The notes beneath the pieces were generated by a model. The model saw nothing but the letters and a program-made list of their open reading frames with translations. It was not told the origin of the DNA and did not search any database. A program made the translations under genes and the position numbers. Below are positions 6,981 to 51,308 of a stretch of DNA of 60,443 nucleotides, piece by piece (the first letter of the stretch is position 1; the number at the start of each line of letters is the position of its first letter). The DNA comes from an uncultured Deferribacteraceae bacterium. Lineage in GTDB: Bacteria; Chrysiogenota; Deferribacteres; CAMZNJ01. Where the stretch lies: positions 1 to 60,443 of the forward strand of contig CAMZNS010000009.1 in assembly GCA_947313855.1 (NCBI GenBank). Direction: 5' to 3'.

Positions 6981-7349
6981 ATGGCTGTTAGCAAATCTTA
7001 CAAGCTAAGGCAGAGACGCAGGGTTCGCATACGTTCCAAAATAAGCGGAACACCCGAATGCCCCCGCTTAGCTGTCTTTAAAAGCAACTTGCACATTTAT
7101 GCTCAAATTATAGACGACTCTCGAGGCATCACACTCGCAAGTGCCTCATCCCTCGAAAAGGGGTTTCGCTCCGCCAAAGAGAACGCAAACCTCAACGTGG
7201 ACGTTTCTAAAAAAGTGGGAACAAATCTTGCAAAACGTGCCAAAGATAACGGCATTAGTCGAGTTGTTTTCGATAGGGGTGGAAACCTTTATCACGGTAA
7301 TATTAAAGTACTTGCGGACTCTGCTCGTGAAGCTGGACTACAGTTCTAA
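6981..7349 (+). CDS. rplR: 50S ribosomal protein L18
   Basis: L18 binds 5S rRNA with L5. The 122-aa product has the conserved core [18 protein letters not shown] and [26 protein letters not shown] at the C-terminus. An AGGAGTTAGG ribosome binding site lies upstream. Confidence 0.97.
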
Positions 7350-7370
7350 TGGCAGAAGGGATGGTTTAAC

Positions 7371-7862
7371 ATGATTGATAATCAACAAGAATTATACGAC
7401 AAGGTTGTCCATGTGGGCAGGGTCGTGAAGGTTGTAAAAGGTGGACGGATCTTCCGATTCACAGCTACCGTTGTCGTCGGCGACATGAACGGCAACGTAG
7501 GCGTTGGATACGGAAAAGCACGCGAAGTGCCCGATGCCATTCGCAAAGCCTTAGACAGTGCAAAAAGAAGCATGGTAGCAATACCACTAGTAAACGACAC
7601 TATCCCACACGAAATAATAGGGAAATTCGGCGCATCCGAAATCCTAATGAAACCTGCATCACCCGGTACAGGTATTATCGCTGGCGGATCTATTCGTCCC
7701 TTACTAGAACTTGCAGGAGTCAAAAATATCCTCACAAAGTCACTACGCAGCAGAAACTACTACAACTCGCTCTACGCTGCTATGGACGGCTTTGACAGGA
7801 TCTCCACACTGGACGAAGTTGCACACATTCGTGGCAAATCTGTTAAAGAAATAATAGGGTAA
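7371..7862 (+). CDS. rpsE: 30S ribosomal protein S5
   Basis: S5 takes part in decoding fidelity and mRNA entry. The 163-aa protein has the double-stranded-RNA-binding-like N-terminal domain (VVKVVKGGRIFRFTATVVVGD, then GNVGVGYGKAREVPDAIRKA) and a C-terminal domain with SPGTGIIAGGSIRPLLELAG. It is followed directly by rplO, so rpmD (L30) is absent from its usual place. Confidence 0.97.
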   Translation: MIDNQQELYDKVVHVGRVVKVVKGGRIFRFTATVVVGDMNGNVGVGYGKAREVPDAIRKALDSAKRSMVAIPLVNDTIPHEIIGKFGASEILMKPASPGTGIIAGGSIRPLLELAGVKNILTKSLRSRNYYNSLYAAMDGFDRISTLDEVAHIRGKSVKEIIG

Positions 7863-23771: not shown

Positions 23772-24091
23772 ATCGCTGTTCACCTGTGTACCGCCTACTG
23801 TGGTAGGAATGTTGCGGTAGGCGGTACGGTGCGGTACGGTGCGGTACGGTGCGGTGCGGTGTGGTACGGTGCGGTGCGGTGCGGTGCGGTGTGGTACGGT
23901 ACTGCGGTACGGTGCGGTGCGATGCGGTGCGGTGCTGCGGTGCGGTGCGGTGCTGCGGTGCGGTGCGATGTGGTACGGTACTGCGGTACGGTGCGGTGCG
24001 GTGCGGTGCTGCGGTGTAGCCAAGACTCAAGAGTCGTGGTGCGTGGGTTGTCCCCCGCGAGGGGGCTATCCCCCTTCTCAGCATTTCGCGG
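23772..24091. other. glpD to phage-cluster intergenic region
   Basis: Holds an inverted repeat (TACCGCCTAC at 23789-23798 and GTAGGCGGTA at 23817-23826) whose right arm runs into a 5-nt tandem array up to about 24015. GC-rich short hairpins (CCCCGCGAGGGG and similar) follow near 24050-24075. No gene is supported; long frames across the array are composed only of repeats. Confidence 0.6.
23821..24013. repeat. 5-nt tandem array after glpD
   Basis: About 38 units of GCGGT/ACGGT with occasional GTGGT, GCGAT and GCT-interrupted copies. Since 5 is not a multiple of three, all frames read through mixed dipeptides. The array begins at the right arm of a 10-bp inverted repeat. Confidence 0.92.
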
Positions 24092-24553
24092 CTATGTTGC
24101 GGCTATCTCGAGTATTGCTGCCCCCGTATCTTTGTCTTCAGAGAGCTGTCCGGCACGTAGTGCGTCCGCCCTAGTTTTTATCCCCGAAGAGTTCGATGTT
24201 CCGCTGAGTATTACGTCTGGTGTGTACATGTTGTTGTCCTCTTCGGGTGCATAGTTGGCGACCTTGCTGTTCAGGTTTCCGTATGGAGCGTTGGTGTTTG
24301 GGAGACCGCTTCCCCTTGCTTGTAGAATCAGTTTCCAGCCTTCGATGCAGTCTAGTGAGGCTGACAGTCTTGGGTTACGTTCTTTGATACGTTTGAGTTC
24401 GCTATCGATGATCGTTCTTTCATCTGTTGTGAGAACGAAGTCGCCGTCTTTTCGTCCCTCTTTCACTAGGATATTTTCTTTAGCGGCTATGGTTTTTTTC
24501 AGTTCGATTATTTCTTTGTTGAGTTTGTTTTTGTTTTTTTTGAAATCAAACAT
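24092..24553 (-). CDS. Hypothetical protein in phage head cluster (153 aa)
   Basis: I do not recognise a family. The N-terminal 35 residues are Lys/Glu-rich and look like a coiled coil; the rest is mixed polar sequence. Its start overlaps the stop of the preceding 165-aa gene by 8 nt, and it is the last gene of the minus-strand phage-type cluster. Position after the portal gene suggests a virion or assembly role, which is inference only. Confidence 0.6.
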   Translation of the reverse strand: MFDFKKNKNKLNKEIIELKKTIAAKENILVKEGRKDGDFVLTTDERTIIDSELKRIKERNPRLSASLDCIEGWKLILQARGSGLPNTNAPYGNLNSKVANYAPEEDNNMYTPDVILSGTSNSSGIKTRADALRAGQLSEDKDTGAAILEIAAT

Positions 24554-25043
24554 TATTGTGTTCTCCGTCGTTAGTTTTCAAGTTTAGTTCGGTATTGGCG
24601 ATGAGTTGAGCGTCGATATTTTTTGCCATATTTTTTATCTGTTCGTCGTTGTTAATGTTTGTGGCATTTTTGAGTTGTAGGTTTAGTGCTTCGCTGTATT
24701 GGTTTGCGAGGTTTTTTTGTAGGTTATTGAACAGAGTTTCTTCAGAGTTGTTGTCGTTGTTTTCGGTATCATAGTCGTTGTTTTCGGTATCATAGTTATC
24801 GTTTTGTTCTTGGATAATATGTTTTGGTAGGTTGAGGATATAATCCAGCCATCCGATCTGTCCGAGTCGTTCTGTTCTTTCGGTGGGCGACAGTTTTTCT
24901 GATTTGCCGTTGAAGATGGCGACACCGTGTAGTGCTTCTTGGTAGAGAGCGAGTCTGCTTTCGTTTATTATGTTTGACAGGACTTCCCACCCTTGTGCGT
25001 TGATCATTAGTTCTAGTGCGTCTTTCTGTTCTTTGGTAAACAT
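24546..25043 (-). CDS. Hypothetical protein in phage head cluster (165 aa)
   Basis: No family recognised. The protein is Asn/Gln/Glu-rich and helical in character, with a 7-residue tandem duplication (NDYDTEN) encoded by a 21-nt unit in its middle. It lies 58 nt after the portal gene with an AGGAGG-type ribosome binding site, and overlaps the next gene by 8 nt. A small virion or scaffolding-like protein is possible but unproven. Confidence 0.6.
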   Translation of the reverse strand: MFTKEQKDALELMINAQGWEVLSNIINESRLALYQEALHGVAIFNGKSEKLSPTERTERLGQIGWLDYILNLPKHIIQEQNDNYDTENNDYDTENNDNNSEETLFNNLQKNLANQYSEALNLQLKNATNINNDEQIKNMAKNIDAQLIANTELNLKTNDGEHNNV

Positions 25044-25101: not shown

Positions 25102-26613
25102 CTAGTTGTTTGTTTCTAGTTGGTCGTTACTTTCCACAGATTTTATGCCCATGGTGTGCACGAGTGTTTTGAGCATCTGTTGTGCACCATCTTTGTCGTC
25201 CGAGTCGAGGTACATTTTGAATGCTCTTTCCATGAGAGCGGCTTGTACGTTGACGTTGGCACCACTTAGCCCAGAGGATATGATAGTTGAGAATCGGAAA
25301 ACGTCTTCTTTGAGCATCTGTTTTAGGGCATCGTGTTTGCTGTGTATGTAAATTAGTCTTGTTGCGTGTCCTAGCATCTCTTCGAAGAATGTTTCGTTGT
25401 ATGATCGAATCATGCTTTGTAGCCTTGTTGCGGCTTCAGAGGCTAGTATTGATAGTCCTTGTGCTGTTTGGTATTTCCCGTCAGATTTTTGCAAGCTTAT
25501 GAGTGGGTCTATTCCGAGAGCTTCGTCGATATCTTTTTTGAGTTCGTCGATTTGGTTTTCGGTAATCCCCACTGATGGTGCTTTCATAACTTGTATTGCG
25601 TTTAGGGCGTTAACTCGAATGATGCTTCCGGGTCCACGTTTTATGTCCATGGGGTTGATGCCTGATCCTATTGCTGCGATCATTTTTGGGTTTAGTGCTT
25701 CAGCGATGCTGTCTATCTGCTGATTTTTCTTGATGTTAATCTCAGTTTGTATTGGTATGAGTCCGGCGATTGGTGAGTCGCCGTAACAAGCAACGGCGTC
25801 TGTTTCGTATGATGGAGTTATTTGTGGTAGTAGTGTGCCTGAGAAGATTGGTAGTCCGTCTTTTAGTGGCACAAACGATCGGAGCACATATTTTCCTCCC
25901 ATGATGGTGGATATGTACCACATGTCGCCACTAGTGCTGCTTGTGTTTTTGAGGCTGTATCGTGTGTAGACGTCCATGAGTTCGACCTTGTTGCTTAGTC
26001 GTTTGTCCGCCTTATTTTTTCTGTTATCGTCATTTGCCATGTCCCTGAGAGCTTTTTGGAACTCTTTAGTGGCAAAGATTTTGTTTCGTCCCAGCTCTTT
26101 AAACTTCATTTCAGACAGATACACTCGGTTGACTACGTATGTTGAGTCTTGGAATGTTTTGGCGTTCGGATCGAAGTAGATATCCTCCAAAGGGATATGC
26201 TCGATGACTATTCCGTTGTCCCAAAAGCATTTGGCGGCAACAGTACCGTAGAGAATCCCCTGGTAGAATGTTGGTGTGAGCCTCGTGAGCAGGGCACTAC
26301 GCTGTAGGTGAGTGTTTAGTACCCGTTCGAGTGTTTTCGCTTTTTGTGCGTCCTGCGGGTTTTCGGGTGCGATAAGTGCTAGTGATTCAAGGTTGAAGTA
26401 TGTTGCTTGGAATGCTGCTGCAATACGCTTGACCTTTGTGTTGATGATGGGGAAGAAGATATGCGACTTGCCACGCTCGTGCATGTTTCGACGTGATTCC
26501 TTGTCAAAGCGACCGATATAGTTGTCAGTAATTTTGTCGAAAGTGGGCTTATATTTGGCATAACCACGTTGTGCGTCCTCGATGATTCCGAGTAGATCGT
26601 TTAGGTTGTTCAT
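25102..26613 (-). CDS. Phage portal protein, podovirus-like
   Basis: The 503-aa protein resembles head-tail connector (portal) proteins of podovirus-like phages: an N-terminal region with IINTKVKRIAAAFQATYF, then VIEHIPLEDIYFDPNA, a central region with YGDSPIAGLIPIQTEINIKKNQQIDSIAEALNPK, and a long C-terminal helical part (ALGIDPLISLQKSD...QTAQGLSILASEA). Portals form the dodecameric ring through which DNA is packaged by terminase. The reading frame is intact. It follows the Mor-like gene by 11 nt. Assignment rests on pattern recognition, not a search. Confidence 0.8.
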   Translation of the reverse strand: MNNLNDLLGIIEDAQRGYAKYKPTFDKITDNYIGRFDKESRRNMHERGKSHIFFPIINTKVKRIAAAFQATYFNLESLALIAPENPQDAQKAKTLERVLNTHLQRSALLTRLTPTFYQGILYGTVAAKCFWDNGIVIEHIPLEDIYFDPNAKTFQDSTYVVNRVYLSEMKFKELGRNKIFATKEFQKALRDMANDDNRKNKADKRLSNKVELMDVYTRYSLKNTSSTSGDMWYISTIMGGKYVLRSFVPLKDGLPIFSGTLLPQITPSYETDAVACYGDSPIAGLIPIQTEINIKKNQQIDSIAEALNPKMIAAIGSGINPMDIKRGPGSIIRVNALNAIQVMKAPSVGITENQIDELKKDIDEALGIDPLISLQKSDGKYQTAQGLSILASEAATRLQSMIRSYNETFFEEMLGHATRLIYIHSKHDALKQMLKEDVFRFSTIISSGLSGANVNVQAALMERAFKMYLDSDDKDGAQQMLKTLVHTMGIKSVESNDQLETNN

Positions 26614-26624
26614 TATGATGTCCT

Positions 26625-26999
26625 TTAGTTTGAAGTAGTTGATTGTTTGTTTAGGTGCGAAGGGGCAGCCGTGGCTCGACGTACCATCTTGGTGGAGTCG
26701 TAGTCGTCAATGTAATCCAAGTCTTCACGACACTCTTCGCGATAGGATCGAGCAAGGTTGTAGTAGCTAGCACGGCTAATGCCAGTACTTTCTCGCACGT
26801 CATTTTGGCTGCAATCTATTTCAATTAGTACGCGTGCAAGCTTCATGCGGTGCATTTTGGATGGTATTCGTATTACCAAGCCGCTCAAGTACTCGCATAG
26901 CCGAAACGCTGCCAAGAAATCTCCGTCCAACGCCTCCACAAGGGTATCAAATGTATTGGATTCATCGTGGAACTGTGTAGCATTACTTTGTTTTGTCAT
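26625..26999 (-). CDS. Mor-like HTH transcription activator
   Basis: A 124-aa protein whose centre, LCEYLSGLVIRIPSKMHR, then a helix-turn-helix DVRESTGISRASYYNLARSY (about residues 71-90), resembles the Mor/C activator family of Mu-like phages. I start it at the ATG (26999) that has GGAGGG five nt upstream; the ATG 12 nt earlier would overlap that site. It heads the unit containing the portal gene and lies behind a near-consensus promoter with a leader of about 260 nt. It is a good candidate for the regulator of the phage-type genes. A small terminase subunit is a less likely alternative. Confidence 0.6.
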   Translation of the reverse strand: MTKQSNATQFHDESNTFDTLVEALDGDFLAAFRLCEYLSGLVIRIPSKMHRMKLARVLIEIDCSQNDVRESTGISRASYYNLARSYREECREDLDYIDDYDSTKMVRRATAAPSHLNKQSTTSN

Positions 27000-27415
27000 A
27001 TATCCCTCCAAGTGTAGTTAAAATACAAAAGTTTTATTTTGTAAAACTATTAAAAGTATACAAATCGTTAATACTGGACTAATGTAACAGTAAGCACACT
27101 GAGAGCATTGTTGTTCTTGCGATATAGTGCTTTTTGGTGCACAATTTGAGTATGCAAGTAGCAACGGTAGAGTAATAATCAAAAGCGTTGCAACCACTAT
27201 GGTTGATGGTTTTCGGGTGTATTAGTTTTCCTATGGAGCCATATTGCTTAAATATGAACTTCTATTAAGAATATAGCAATAAGTTTACCAATTGTCAACT
27301 TTCCGCAATAAATAGAAAATTAATTCGCTATATGAAGAGTCGAACTACTACCCCGTCCCCCTCCTAACCCTATTGTTGCCCGTATGGATGTACTTTTAGT
27401 CGTTGCCTGATACCC
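27000..27415 (-). other. Regulatory gap inside the phage head cluster
   Basis: These 416 nt contain no supported gene. On the minus strand they hold a near-consensus promoter (27270-27298) and a long leader with a perfect hairpin CAACCA-TAG-TGGTTG near 27190-27204. The gap splits the cluster into a capsid unit upstream and a regulator-portal unit downstream. Confidence 0.65.
27270..27298 (-). promoter_or_regulatory. Near-consensus promoter before Mor-like gene
   Basis: On the minus strand, a perfect -35 box TTGACA (27293-27298) is followed after exactly 17 nt by TATATT (27270-27275). Transcription would start near 27262 and read into the Mor-like regulator and portal genes. It is among the strongest promoter matches seen in the window. 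Confidence 0.75.
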
Positions 27416-27973
27416 CTACACCGGTATGTTGTTTGTCATACCTGTTACTGTGTATCTAGCGTTCCAGTCGGTACTGCTTCGATACATCCGCCCTTGCGAA
27501 TAGTACTTCTTCCCAGCTTTAGCCATAAGGTCGTAGCACTGCTCTATGGTTGCACTGCTTACGGAGATAAAGCTCTGCTGTGAGGCAACAAATCTGTCGG
27601 CAGTTATGGAGTAGGTGTTAACTTTCGTGGCTGCAGATATGTAGCTCGTCAGCACGCTTGCATTAGTTTTGGCCACCTCGTTTAGTGTTTGGATGGCGAG
27701 TTTGGCATCATGTTGTTCGTTGTCGATGGCTATCTTCATGAGTGCAAGGGCGGCGTCATGGGCTAGGCGTTGCATGTCGGAGAAGTATTTCCCGGCGAAG
27801 CGAAAAAGAGCCTCCATTCGTTTTTCGGGTTCCATGTCGTTGAGTCCCATGTTACCGGCTTGCCTTTCAGCGATGACGAAGAAGTAGTCTGATGATTGCA
27901 GGTATGTGTTGATTGTTCGGGCGTAGTCCACGTATCTCATGGCGTACCCGTTTCTGGGTGTGTAAGGTTGCAT
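27416..27973 (-). CDS. Hypothetical virion-associated protein (185 aa)
   Basis: No family recognised. The sequence is mostly helical and polar, rich in Ala, with a conserved-looking Tyr-rich N-terminus (MQPYTPRNGYAMRYVDYA). It follows the 233-aa gene with 34 nt between and belongs to the unit led by the major capsid gene. A head-completion or minor virion protein is a reasonable guess from position. Confidence 0.6.
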   Translation of the reverse strand: MQPYTPRNGYAMRYVDYARTINTYLQSSDYFFVIAERQAGNMGLNDMEPEKRMEALFRFAGKYFSDMQRLAHDAALALMKIAIDNEQHDAKLAIQTLNEVAKTNASVLTSYISAATKVNTYSITADRFVASQQSFISVSSATIEQCYDLMAKAGKKYYSQGRMYRSSTDWNARYTVTGMTNNIPV

Positions 27974-28007: not shown

Positions 28008-28709
28008 CTAGATTGAGGATTGTAGCAGTAGCTCGTCCTGATTCATTGGCAGGTTGTTGTCCTGTTTGTTTACAAAGTTGAGTGTGTACGTTTTATATTC
28101 GAAAGGTATTTCGATTGTTCGATCTTCTAGGTATCTTCTGAGGAAGTTAAGGTATTTGGGTGCAAACACTTTGACAACGCCGTTGAAGTTTGCTTCAAAA
28201 ACGGCGGGGTTATTTTCAAATTCGATTCTTGCACGAATGAGGGCGTCTTTGCTGTCGTAATCGGTAAACCCTTGCTCTTCGAGGTAGTTGTAGAACTCCC
28301 AGTTGCGATTTTCGATGACACCACTCATCTCCTCCCTTAGGTATCGCCTGCTTTTTTCTGTTTGGGTCATCTCCATGGCAACAAAATAGAGGAAGATGTC
28401 CAGTGTGTAGTCGTCCATCAGTAGTGTGGTATCTTTTTGAGTCATGTATGAGAGTCGTCGAGTAAAAGGTTCGTATGTTAGGAAAAATGTATTGGTGAGA
28501 GTTTTGTATTTCACATTGTTTATGGGATCGGTGCGTACGAATCGTGCTGGTGTGATGCTAACGCACATATCGTGGAAAGCGTTTAGGGCACGGGGGAAGA
28601 ATATGAATGGTCGTTCACCGATCTCGATTTTGTTTGGTAGGATAGCGTCGAGTCGACCGCGTAGCATTAGCATGTCGAAGTGGTCGAATTCCTCCGAGTA
28701 GTTTTGCAT
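28008..28709 (-). CDS. Hypothetical virion-associated protein (233 aa)
   Basis: I do not recognise the family. The protein is rich in aromatic residues and charged pairs and lacks a signal peptide or membrane segment. It lies directly downstream of the major capsid gene, the usual place for head-tail connector or adaptor proteins. Function is inferred from position only. Confidence 0.6.
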   Translation of the reverse strand: MQNYSEEFDHFDMLMLRGRLDAILPNKIEIGERPFIFFPRALNAFHDMCVSITPARFVRTDPINNVKYKTLTNTFFLTYEPFTRRLSYMTQKDTTLLMDDYTLDIFLYFVAMEMTQTEKSRRYLREEMSGVIENRNWEFYNYLEEQGFTDYDSKDALIRARIEFENNPAVFEANFNGVVKVFAPKYLNFLRRYLEDRTIEIPFEYKTYTLNFVNKQDNNLPMNQDELLLQSSI

Positions 28710-28808: not shown

Positions 28809-29789
28809 TTATTTCAGACCAACGCCTATGGAGAATGCATCAGCGTTTCGTAGTTCTAGTGTTGCTTCGGTGTAGTATCTTTTCGCGACGCCAGTTTTGT
28901 CGGTGTGCACTTCGGCGAGTTCTGTTGGGTAGAGTAGTCCTACTTTGGCGTAGTCGAAGTTACCAGCGATGATTGTGTCGTCTAGTGCGTTTTCTTGGTT
29001 CATGAATCTTGATAGGTGTATGTTTACTGTTCCGAAGTCGGTTTCGAGTGCGACTAGTCTTCCGACGTAAGTTGTTTGGTCGCTGTAGTTTCTGTTGACG
29101 AAGGAGTTTATTCTTGCTTTGAGTGTTGTTCCGACGAAAACGTCTTTTACGGTTTCACCGGCGTTGTATGTTTGTTGTAGAATTGTGTTGAATTTGTTCC
29201 AGTCCATGGTGGATTTGGTACCGGTCCAGTCTTTGGAGCTGTCGTAGGCGGTGATGTTCCCTTTTTTGCCGTTAGTGAAAGTGGTTTCGTCTTTTGCGAC
29301 GAAGTAGAACATACCGGCGGCTTCTCCGGGTTGGTTTTCGCTTCTGTGTATGGGTTCTTTGAGTAGTGATATTTTTGGATCGTTGTCTCTGTTTAGTCCT
29401 AGAATCATCTGTTCGAGTAGTTTTTTGTGTTCTTTGGCTTTTTTAGCGACTTCGTGTTCGAGTTCGTTACCGCCGTAGGCTTTGATTTGCGTCATTGTTT
29501 TTGATACGAATAGTTCGGTTTTGAATATTTCCACAGCATTGCTGTTATTTTGTTTGTGATTGACTTGTGTTGTGTTGAGGGAAGAGATTTCGTTTTCGGG
29601 AGTACGTTCGGGGTCACCGATTTTGTCGATTACCCATGAGTGCGAAGTATTTGTTACTGCAGATGTTCCCATTGCTTTGAGCATTGGTGTTTCGTCGCTT
29701 CCCACGAGGATAATTCCTTCGTAAACGGAAGGTTTTGTTCCTGTTGATGGTAGGTTTGCCTGTGGGTATGATGTGCTAGTTATCGCCAT
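28809..29789 (-). CDS. Phage major capsid protein, DUF5309/SU10-like
   Basis: The 326-aa protein resembles the SU10-type major capsid family: an N-terminal VYEGIILVGSDETPMLKAMG followed by THSWVID-type HSWVIDKIGDPE, then a long helix with ELEHEVAKKAKEHKKLLEQMILGLN, and a C-terminal segment VNIHLSRFMNQE...DYAKVGLLYPTELAEVHTDK. In such proteins an HK97-like fold forms the head shell. The gene has an AAGGAG site 9 nt before the ATG and is transcribed away from msbA. The frame is intact. Identification is by sequence pattern. Confidence 0.75.
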   Translation of the reverse strand: MAITSTSYPQANLPSTGTKPSVYEGIILVGSDETPMLKAMGTSAVTNTSHSWVIDKIGDPERTPENEISSLNTTQVNHKQNNSNAVEIFKTELFVSKTMTQIKAYGGNELEHEVAKKAKEHKKLLEQMILGLNRDNDPKISLLKEPIHRSENQPGEAAGMFYFVAKDETTFTNGKKGNITAYDSSKDWTGTKSTMDWNKFNTILQQTYNAGETVKDVFVGTTLKARINSFVNRNYSDQTTYVGRLVALETDFGTVNIHLSRFMNQENALDDTIIAGNFDYAKVGLLYPTELAEVHTDKTGVAKRYYTEATLELRNADAFSIGVGLK

Positions 29790-29879
29790 AATTTAAGTCT
29801 CCTTGTTATTGGTGGTGTGAGAGCATGTTACAGTTGTTGGTGTCCAGAGTTGTCATCAGGCATGGACAGGAAAGTTTTT

Positions 29880-49046: not shown

Positions 49047-50501
49047 CTACCAGCTACCGTCAGTATCGATGGGGGCAGAGCCGTTGCTCCAGCCTGCAGA
49101 CACCTCTTCATCCCCCCATTCATCCCACTGAGGCACATGTGAGAGTCCCATCTCCAGTGCGTACGCCAGTGCGTCTAAAATATCGTCGCCATTGTTTTTG
49201 CTAGTGGGATCAAACCGCAATGCCTCTTCTAGGACTAGTTTCGGCACCTGTTCGTAGAACAATAGGCGTCCCTCCTCCAACGCCTTCAGCAGGAACAGTT
49301 CAATCCGCAGGTTTTTGCCTCGTCCTGATGGTGTTAGCTCTACCAGTGGCACAAACACGGCACTGTTTAGCATGAGGTTTCGGAACATGTCGTAATAATG
49401 CCACGATGCTGTTGTGCGTTCGATACCGACCTGTATCGGTTTGTGGTTACGAATCATCTCCAGCAGTATGTTTTGTGATTGTGTTGCACTGTAGTGTCCC
49501 GCGGAGACGTCTAGCATGTGAGCGGTGTTCCCTTTGTCCACGCCTATGACTACGATGGCTGTCCGGTCGTTTTTGGCGGCACTAGCACCATCTTTGAGAG
49601 CGATATCCACGGCGATATATTTGGTGAGTTCGTCAAGTTGTACCCCTTTGCTAATTTTAAACATGTCCACGGCAAAGAGTGTTCCGTCGGGTATGCTCCA
49701 GTCTCCGTTTAGCATTGCGTTACGCACCTTGAGGGGTAGTTTTTCCAAGTTGCGAACATACTCTTCGATGTTGATGTGTGGGTTGTCGTAGACCATGGAC
49801 GGTATGTATAATTTGTCTGTGTGGCTTGTGGTGTTAGTGTTAGTGTTAGTGTTAGTGTGAGTGTTAGTGTGAGTGTGCACGGCTAGTTTTTTCAGTTGTT
49901 CCAGGGTTAGGATTTTTGCAACACCGTGCCCGTTGTTGTCGTTGTTGTCATGTTCGTCGGTGCTTGTGATAAACCTGTCTTTTACCCATGCTTTGTACGG
50001 TACGGGGTTTGCAGTTGCTCTCATTAGGTTTGGGTATCCGGTGGTGTTCCTCAGTCGTGAGAATAGGAAGAGGTATTCGTCTTCGTAGAAGTGTGTGAGT
50101 TCGTCGAAAGCGACGTACGAGAATTCTGCTCCTTGGTATCGATAGACATGGTTTGCGTTCCCTAGGTATCCGAGGTGTATGACGGTTTTGTTGGTTAGTG
50201 TAACTTGTCCTTGAGTTTTGTTGTAGTTGTAGAGTGTGTTTGGGTAGAACTGCAATATTTTTCGTGTGATAGAGCTTTCGAGTTCCCCTTTAGTTCGTCT
50301 AACTAGTAGCATGTTTGCGTGTGGGTATTGTAGTCCGTATTTGAGTGCGTCCATGACCAACGCCATGGATTTTCCACCACCGGCGGCTCCACCGTAGAGT
50401 ACTTCTGGAACGACGAGTTCTTGTGTGTGGTGGAAGATTGCTTGTTTTTGTGTTGGTGTATAAAATTCCGATGAGTATAGCTGTAAATCGTTAGTTTTCA
50501 T
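49047..50501 (-). CDS. Phage terminase large subunit
   Basis: The DNA-packaging motor of tailed phages, 484 aa. ATPase domain: Walker A GGAAGGGKS (residues 37-45), Walker B YVAFDE (129-134) and coupling motif RATANP (about 155). Nuclease domain: YIAVDIALKDG near residue 295 and DDILDALAYALEMG near 447. All parts needed for packaging look intact. Residues about 208-224 are Asn-Thr/His-Thr repeats from a 6-nt array between the two domains. It lies 43 nt after a probable small subunit and 19 kb from the capsid cluster. Confidence 0.92.
   Translation of the reverse strand: MKTNDLQLYSSEFYTPTQKQAIFHHTQELVVPEVLYGGAAGGGKSMALVMDALKYGLQYPHANMLLVRRTKGELESSITRKILQFYPNTLYNYNKTQGQVTLTNKTVIHLGYLGNANHVYRYQGAEFSYVAFDELTHFYEDEYLFLFSRLRNTTGYPNLMRATANPVPYKAWVKDRFITSTDEHDNNDNNGHGVAKILTLEQLKKLAVHTHTNTHTNTNTNTNTTSHTDKLYIPSMVYDNPHINIEEYVRNLEKLPLKVRNAMLNGDWSIPDGTLFAVDMFKISKGVQLDELTKYIAVDIALKDGASAAKNDRTAIVVIGVDKGNTAHMLDVSAGHYSATQSQNILLEMIRNHKPIQVGIERTTASWHYYDMFRNLMLNSAVFVPLVELTPSGRGKNLRIELFLLKALEEGRLLFYEQVPKLVLEEALRFDPTSKNNGDDILDALAYALEMGLSHVPQWDEWGDEEVSAGWSNGSAPIDTDGSW
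49831..49877. repeat. 6-nt tandem array inside terL
   Basis: Seven to eight hexamers of GTGTTA/GTGTGA encode Asn-Thr and His-Thr pairs on the minus strand, at the linker between the ATPase and nuclease domains. Confidence 0.9.
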
Positions 50502-50544
50502 TGTTATCCATATATTTCTAGTAAGGGTGTTGCGTGTTTGCGTT

Positions 50545-50868
50545 TTAGTATTCTAAGTGTACTACAACAGCAGAGTTTTCGTTGTTTCCCTTTTTGGTGG
50601 TGTAGTATCGGTTTAGTATAAATTCGCCCACACTTTTGGGAATTTTGCCTTTGGTCATGAAGCTGATGATTTTGGCTTCGTCCATGGCTTTTATCTCTGC
50701 AATACGTGGTTGGAGTTCGGGGTATTTGTTTTCGATGTCGTCAAGAGTTGATTTTGCGAGTCCTCTAGTTAGTAGGTATTGCGGTATGAAGATGTCTTCC
50801 CCTTTGAGTATCCAAGTTTTGGTATCGTTTATTAGGGCTGATGCTTTTGTGTAAGTGATAGGTTTCAT
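50545..50868 (-). CDS. Probable terminase small subunit
   Basis: A 107-aa protein directly upstream of terL. Its middle, DIENKYPELQPRIAEIKAMDEAKIISFMTKGKIPKSVGEFILNRYY, has the spacing of small terminase subunits where a helical oligomerisation region is followed by an F-x-L-x-NR stretch. The small subunit recognises viral DNA and presents it to TerL. No HTH is obvious in the N-terminus, so this rests on context plus weak pattern. Confidence 0.6.
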   Translation of the reverse strand: MKPITYTKASALINDTKTWILKGEDIFIPQYLLTRGLAKSTLDDIENKYPELQPRIAEIKAMDEAKIISFMTKGKIPKSVGEFILNRYYTTKKGNNENSAVVVHLEY

Positions 50869-50898
50869 AGTGTATCTCCCCGTGTGTTTGTTTGTGTT

Positions 50899-51084
50899 TT
50901 AGGAGCACTGCTCTAGGGCGATTAGTAGTTGACGTGGGTCGACGTCACAGCTATCGGCAACGTACCTTAGTTTTGTGAAAAAGTCGATTGCGTCTTCCGT
51001 CATCATTTCGATACCTTGGTTTATCAGCCCTTCGTTTGTTAGAGTATCGTCGTAGGATTCGGTATGTTTGTGGTATGTTTGCAT
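50899..51084 (-). CDS. Hypothetical small protein upstream of terminase (61 aa)
   Basis: A short acidic frame with an AAAGGAGG ribosome binding site and only 30 nt to the next gene. No family recognised. Its first position in the terminase unit suggests cotranscription. Direct repeats of an 11-nt unit (CATGAGTTTGT, about 51118-51150) lie upstream. Confidence 0.5.
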   Translation of the reverse strand: MQTYHKHTESYDDTLTNEGLINQGIEMMTEDAIDFFTKLRYVADSCDVDPRQLLIALEQCS

Positions 51085-51234: not shown

Positions 51235-51308
51235 CGGGGAGTAGCGCAGCTTGGTAGCGCACCTGTTTTGGGAACAGGTGGTCGCAGGTTCAAATCCTGT
51301 CTCCCCGA
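51235..51308 (+). tRNA. tRNA-Pro (anticodon TGG)
   Basis: A complete cloverleaf: acceptor stem CGGGGAG/CTCCCCG, D arm with GCGC...GCGC, anticodon stem CCTGT/ACAGG with loop TTTGGGA (anticodon TGG), and T arm with GGTTCAAATCC. The discriminator base is A and CCA is not encoded. It stands alone next to the phage terminase genes. Confidence 0.95.

Follow-up and report, generated by a model that had tools for sequence, protein, structure and literature searches.

The window, by which we mean the whole stretch of 60,443 nucleotides analysed here, comes from Candidatus Rimicarispirillum, which lives as a symbiont in the gut of deep-sea vent shrimp. The species is most likely R. atlantis, sister of R. 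nautilei, a name that we infer from the GC content. The genome is reduced (1.34 Mb, 91% complete) and the GC content of the window is 46.7%, while the genomes described in the literature span 1.25-1.36 Mb with a GC content of 46.7-47.6% (PMC9636832). The window genome (G000) was compared with the sole same-genus genome included, G001 (contig CAMZNJ010000020, isolate M_SnakePit_MAG_00002), an isolate named Candidatus Rimicarispirillum nautilei, the midgut symbiont of Rimicaris exoculata (PMC9636832). The literature on these symbionts mentions phage only in the context of CRISPR, and no head-gene cluster (PMC9636832, PMC12887300).

The window contains a cluster of seven genes, all on the minus strand, which is flanked by glpD and an ABC transporter gene, both on the plus strand. 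In the order of the genes, the cluster reads:

28809-29789, minus strand: major capsid protein (SU10_MCP, 7.9e-51), 98% identical in G001
28008-28709, minus strand: conserved protein whose gene immediately follows that of the capsid, an adaptor by position only; intact in G001
27416-27973, minus strand: conserved capsid-operon protein of unassigned function, syntenic and intact in G001, with a similar place in G041 and G042
26625-26999, minus strand: HTH gene (124 aa), phrog_6425-like and likely a remote relative of Mor/C
25102-26613, minus strand: portal (SU10_portal, 8.6e-21; phrog_332, 3.3e-45), 93% identical in G001
24546-25043, minus strand: small protein behind the portal, matching (blastp 1.2e-4) a 101-aa protein at the same place in G041
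24092-24553, minus strand: scaffold-like protein, by position only (after the portal and the small protein), intact in G001

The scaffold-like protein matches no family in Pfam or PHROGs, and the predicted structure of the protein following the capsid (pLDDT 49) is too poor to be used. Early phage genes are missing from the window, as the preliminary description had stated, and no tail, lysis or replication genes are seen in it. Between glpD and the scaffold-like gene lies a long simple repeat of the CCGCAC/CCGTAC type (23780-24090), most of which is missing in G001; short repeats resembling it are also present within other host genes of the window.

The same seven genes occupy the same place in R. 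nautilei, between glpD and the ABC transporter gene, and contain no stops. The synonymous distance between the two species is about 0.4-0.6, and omega is 0.01-0.02 for the capsid gene, 0.06 for the portal gene, 0.16-0.19 for the HTH gene and 0.01-0.19 over the seven genes, compared with 0.04-0.19 for the neighbouring named host genes. Most of the cluster genes have a host-like GC content. Judged by these sequence comparisons, the head cluster is kept by descent under purifying selection in the two species. Related pieces are found further afield. The termite symbiont G041 (TD116_bin76) carries a portal, small protein and scaffold-like gene among host genes (L019, 5834-8011) and, on another contig (L012), a capsid gene, a second and a third gene and a tail-fibre-like gene; no HTH gene of the window family was detected in this genome, which keeps capsid and portal genes and is 87% complete. 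Genome G037 has a degenerate portal fragment (L020, about 7247-7636) near ribosomal-protein-S15-like and polynucleotide-phosphorylase-like genes.

The HTH gene starts at the ATG at 26999 and not at the listed TTG at 27011, since a GGAGGG Shine-Dalgarno sequence precedes the ATG and the TTG falls inside it. Its stop lies 11 nt upstream of the portal start, in agreement with the earlier view that the portal gene follows at once. The protein carries the motif CEYLSGLVIRIPSK, followed by the HTH, and differs little from its G001 homologue in the core (94 of 96 residues identical) and more in the tail (12 of 26). Its match in PHROGs is phrog_6425, of unassigned function (5.9e-7); no Pfam family is above threshold in hmmscan, and none of the small-terminase models of Pfam and PHROGs matches it. 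Sequence matches in the PDB are HTH-only or repeat proteins. A match to a Moraxella phage protein was weak, belonged to a different phrog and was set aside.

Upstream of the HTH gene, the following features are predicted:

27298-27270, minus strand: sigma-70 promoter TTGACA-17-TATATT, 11 of 12 consensus bases, extended -10
27264-27301, minus strand: invariant block of -35, spacer and -10, 38 nt identical in G001, with a possible operator in the spacer
27000-27263, minus strand: leader, about 264 nt between the predicted transcription start near 27263 and the ATG at 26999

The -35 hexamer is at 27298-27293 and the -10 hexamer at 27275-27270, with a spacer of 17 and a TG before the -10. TTGACA-N15..19-TATATT occurs only once in the 60-kb window, compared with 0.04 occurrences expected from shuffles, and a genome search found no second copy of the 38-nt block at up to 3 mismatches. 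Both the near-consensus promoter and the leader of about 260 nt given in the preliminary description are thus present. A promoter this close to consensus, with its extended -10, may allow expression of the HTH gene with no activator. The 416-nt gap that holds the promoter is 84% identical to that of G001 overall, and the last 42 nt of the leader, up to the ATG, are identical; this run is unusually long, though not extreme in a run-length shuffle test of the gap, where it was reached in 27 of 5000 shuffles. An Rfam search of the leader brought no family close to threshold, and its minus strand contains no convincing terminator.

The HTH protein had been described as resembling the Mor/C activators of Mu-like phages. 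For the single protein this does not hold: PF08765 (Mor) gives no hit up to E 1 in hmmscan, nor in a search of its own genome; controls and 12 relatives do match the model. The protein, being below the Pfam cut-off, is not a member of PF08765 as defined. The resemblance appears at the level of family profiles. Comparison of a profile of 15 family members with one of 15 Mor/C proteins (Mu Mor, Mu C and Deferribacterota members) gives an hhalign probability of 92%, in an alignment that takes in the HTH and also the motif ahead of it, A..LC...G..iyIP. Small terminases, too, score 95% against Mor, by way of nothing but the HTH, and the hhalign probability was rejected as sole evidence. Since similarity confined to the HTH is unspecific in this way, the pre-HTH half was examined separately. 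Against Mor/C it scores 23.8, whereas 200 column shuffles average 7.9 with an sd of 1.8 and never exceed 15.0. When it was searched blindly against 3834 ORFs, the first seven matches after its own family were all Mor proteins, Mu Mor included, each with an E value of merely 0.3-0.9; the full family profile finds Mu Mor at E 0.005. The reverse search with the Mor half places two members of the HTH family, L048 (E 0.019) and the Helicobacter pullorum protein (0.8), directly after Mor itself, while the window protein ranks far down. Iterating the Mor profile pulled in small terminases, and the drifted profile was set aside. With the AlphaFold model of the HTH protein (mean pLDDT 73.7) as query, Mu C ranks fourth in the PDB (E 0.62), and a viral library yields Mor proteins in places 9 and 43 (E 0.23 and 0.82); no match is significant. 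Taken together, a remote common ancestry of the HTH protein and Mor/C is likely. Several Deferribacterota genomes of insect- or rodent-gut type (L061-L071, L075-L077) encode genuine PF08765 Mor proteins, which are about 95 aa long.

The neighbourhood was compared across 27 viral and 8 genome loci gathered with an alignment of the portal, and a small HTH gene is found upstream of almost all of these related portals. The family profile reaches the window protein at E 1.3e-23 and links it with proteins of Helicobacter pullorum, Campylobacter concisus and metagenomic phages. The usual gene order in the phage relatives is small terminase, TerL, HTH, portal. The HTH gene stands exactly between TerL and portal in about 20 loci from phages and prophages, and in most relatives it starts inside the last bases of TerL and stops inside the portal start. 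By profile and gene order, the HTH protein belongs to a family, so far uncharacterised, whose members occupy the TerL-HTH-portal slot of podovirus-type phages and prophages. The possibility that it is itself the small terminase was considered. Several relatives carry separate Pfam small terminases upstream of TerL in the same genomes (GP3_package, 5.3e-19 and 1.4e-16; Terminase_2, 4.3e-10), which rules out this identity in those phages; in other relatives the gene upstream encodes another kind of HTH protein. A second set of phages (L034, L035, L037, L038, L044, L049) has 155-aa proteins in the slot between TerL and portal, which resemble two HTH halves.

The terminase genes of the window are found elsewhere, TerL, to which the preliminary description gave no position, being 19 kb beyond the capsid gene with host genes between. 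These genes, and a candidate control element ahead of the capsid gene, are as follows:

49047-50501, minus strand: terminase large subunit, TerL (Terminase_6N, 9.5e-12; phrog_979, 1.6e-61)
50545-50868, minus strand: small terminase by position only, directly upstream of TerL, with weak profile support (hhalign 2%)
50899-51084, minus strand: 61-aa ORF that opens the terminase operon
29841-29868, minus strand: candidate dyad TGTCCA-N16-TGGACA, its arms kept and its interior diverged between the two species

The assignment of the 107-aa gene upstream of TerL as small terminase is positional, and it was not accepted as proven. In the G001 assembly the terminase region is missing along with its host genes, and for this reason the absence of TerL there says nothing about the terminase. 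The terminase operon (49047-51084) adjoins tRNA-Pro(TGG) at 51235-51308 on the plus strand, possibly an old integration site. A promoter scan found no minus-strand promoter of at least 10/12 ahead of the capsid or terminase operons, and the best minus-strand promoter of the region in the consensus scan, ranked by score and not by function, is that of the HTH-portal operon. This distribution fits a regulator that is constitutive or controlled by a repressor and that activates both of the other operons. No motif or operator common to the three operon gaps was found. From its sequence, the dyad before the capsid gene could be an operator; it may serve the ABC transporter instead, as it is placed between divergent genes.

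The reading that we put forward, as a tentative one with a real chance of being right, is that the HTH protein may be the retained regulator of a dispersed remnant similar to a gene transfer agent (GTA), acting as a dimeric switch on the particle genes. It is an HTH DNA-binding protein of phage origin, probably a distant relative of Mor/C, from the family in the TerL-portal slot. The phage has been broken up into at least two groups of operons among host genes, one with the capsid and HTH-portal operons and the other with the terminase, and the HTH gene is now the first of the portal operon, with a conserved sigma-70 promoter to itself. This private promoter is probably a lineage-specific feature, given that the HTH start lies within the TerL end in most relatives, and it most likely arose when TerL and the portal group parted in the Rimicarispirillum lineage. 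As a dimer, the HTH protein could tune its own operon and activate those of the capsid and the terminase, for which no promoter of similar quality was found. A particle of GTA type, dimerisation of the HTH protein, its DNA targets and activation by it are each plausible. Several results speak against this reading: PF08765 fails to match, the fold comparison is insignificant, no operator common to the three operons was found, and G041 retains capsid and portal genes with no HTH gene detected, although that genome is incomplete. The idea of a host-kept switch is sustained in its first part, since a protein with the remote Mor/C signature is intact together with the head genes in two species; the switch itself would follow from the mechanism proposed here.

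A role in packaging is a serious rival, even if a somewhat unlikely one. The HTH protein would then be an accessory that binds DNA at the portal or terminase, either as a second small-terminase-like protein or as a recogniser of the packaging site, and would have no part in transcription. In the roughly 20 loci its gene fits precisely between TerL and portal and in most cases overlaps the two, as expected of a part of the motor, and a position within the late operon of the phages suits a packaging part equally well; moreover, the gene stayed beside the portal when TerL moved off, and the 155-aa versions seem to have a second HTH-like half. Against this, the same phages have separate small terminases, and the pre-HTH motif is of the Mor/C type, while two groups of small terminases give 29% (HTH only) and 0.2% in hhalign.

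Two further explanations have less to commend them. That the cluster is the debris of a defective prophage, still intact by chance and of no benefit to the host, is improbable. The scattering of the phage genes, the window's want of tail, lysis and replication genes, the single tail-fibre query, which had no match in the genome, and the degenerate portal fragment that is all G037 retains would be in keeping with it; seven intact genes in two species at such a synonymous distance, with omega as in the host neighbours, are not, nor are the host-like GC, the invariant promoter block and a genome reduced to 1.34 Mb. Very improbable is the view that the HTH protein works like the loader or anti-terminator proteins Q and GafZ, with RNA polymerase at the HTH promoter and the long leader as its targets. 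The invariance of the entire -35/spacer/-10 block, which extends beyond the hexamers, and the length of the leader invite this comparison with the gene transfer agent CcGTA, where a GafZ element lies between -35 and -10 and the untranslated region has 229 nt (PMC11150451), but the leader here has no convincing terminator on the minus strand, and no link in sequence to Q, AlpA or GafZ was seen.

Returning to the HTH protein as a retained regulator, the retention of head and terminase genes in a reduced genome for the age of the two species suggests that the particle, or a part of it, pays. The parts found are head and terminase, in a genome that is 91% complete. It is rather doubtful that Rimicarispirillum makes a GTA-like particle from dispersed genes of SU10/podovirus type under the control of a domesticated, remotely Mor-like protein with its own promoter. 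If it does, this would be, to the extent of the literature searched, the first case in Deferribacterota and in its reduced-genome animal symbionts, and a Mor-like regulator would offer a handle on when and why the particle genes are used; no report of a GTA with a Mor activator was found in that literature. What is new and best supported is that a TerL-HTH-portal family exists, that it is remotely linked to Mor/C, that its members are not the small terminase in the relatives, and that a vent-shrimp symbiont keeps an intact, dispersed set of phage genes under selection. As the family is common in prophages of Campylobacterota, its function, once known, would annotate many phages.

The closest known relatives are the TerL-HTH-portal phages of the H. 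pullorum and C. concisus type and phrog_6425, with which the window shares the family and the portal neighbour. There the HTH gene usually abuts or overlaps TerL within a complete late operon, whereas in the window TerL lies elsewhere and a private promoter precedes the HTH gene. Mor and C of Mu resemble the HTH protein in the motif A..LC...GG..iYIPk followed by a C-terminal HTH, in their phage origin and in size (129 and 140 aa, compared with 124 aa). They sit upstream of the operons that they activate, while the HTH gene of the phage relatives lies inside the packaging operon. In Mu, the Mor-dependent promoter Pm has neither a -35 nor an extended -10, and the Mor dimer binds there to a dyad whose centre is at -43.5 (PMC4287176); the HTH gene, by contrast, has a strong promoter of its own. 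RcGTA and CcGTA, with GafA and GafYZ, are like the window in having host-kept, vertically inherited and partly dispersed head and packaging genes together with a DNA-binding regulator. The window differs from them in its head genes of SU10/podovirus type and its host in Deferribacterota, and its set is known from genes alone. Its HTH regulator is unrelated to GafA and GafYZ by any comparison made and, if the proposed role is correct, would represent a type of GTA control unlinked to either.
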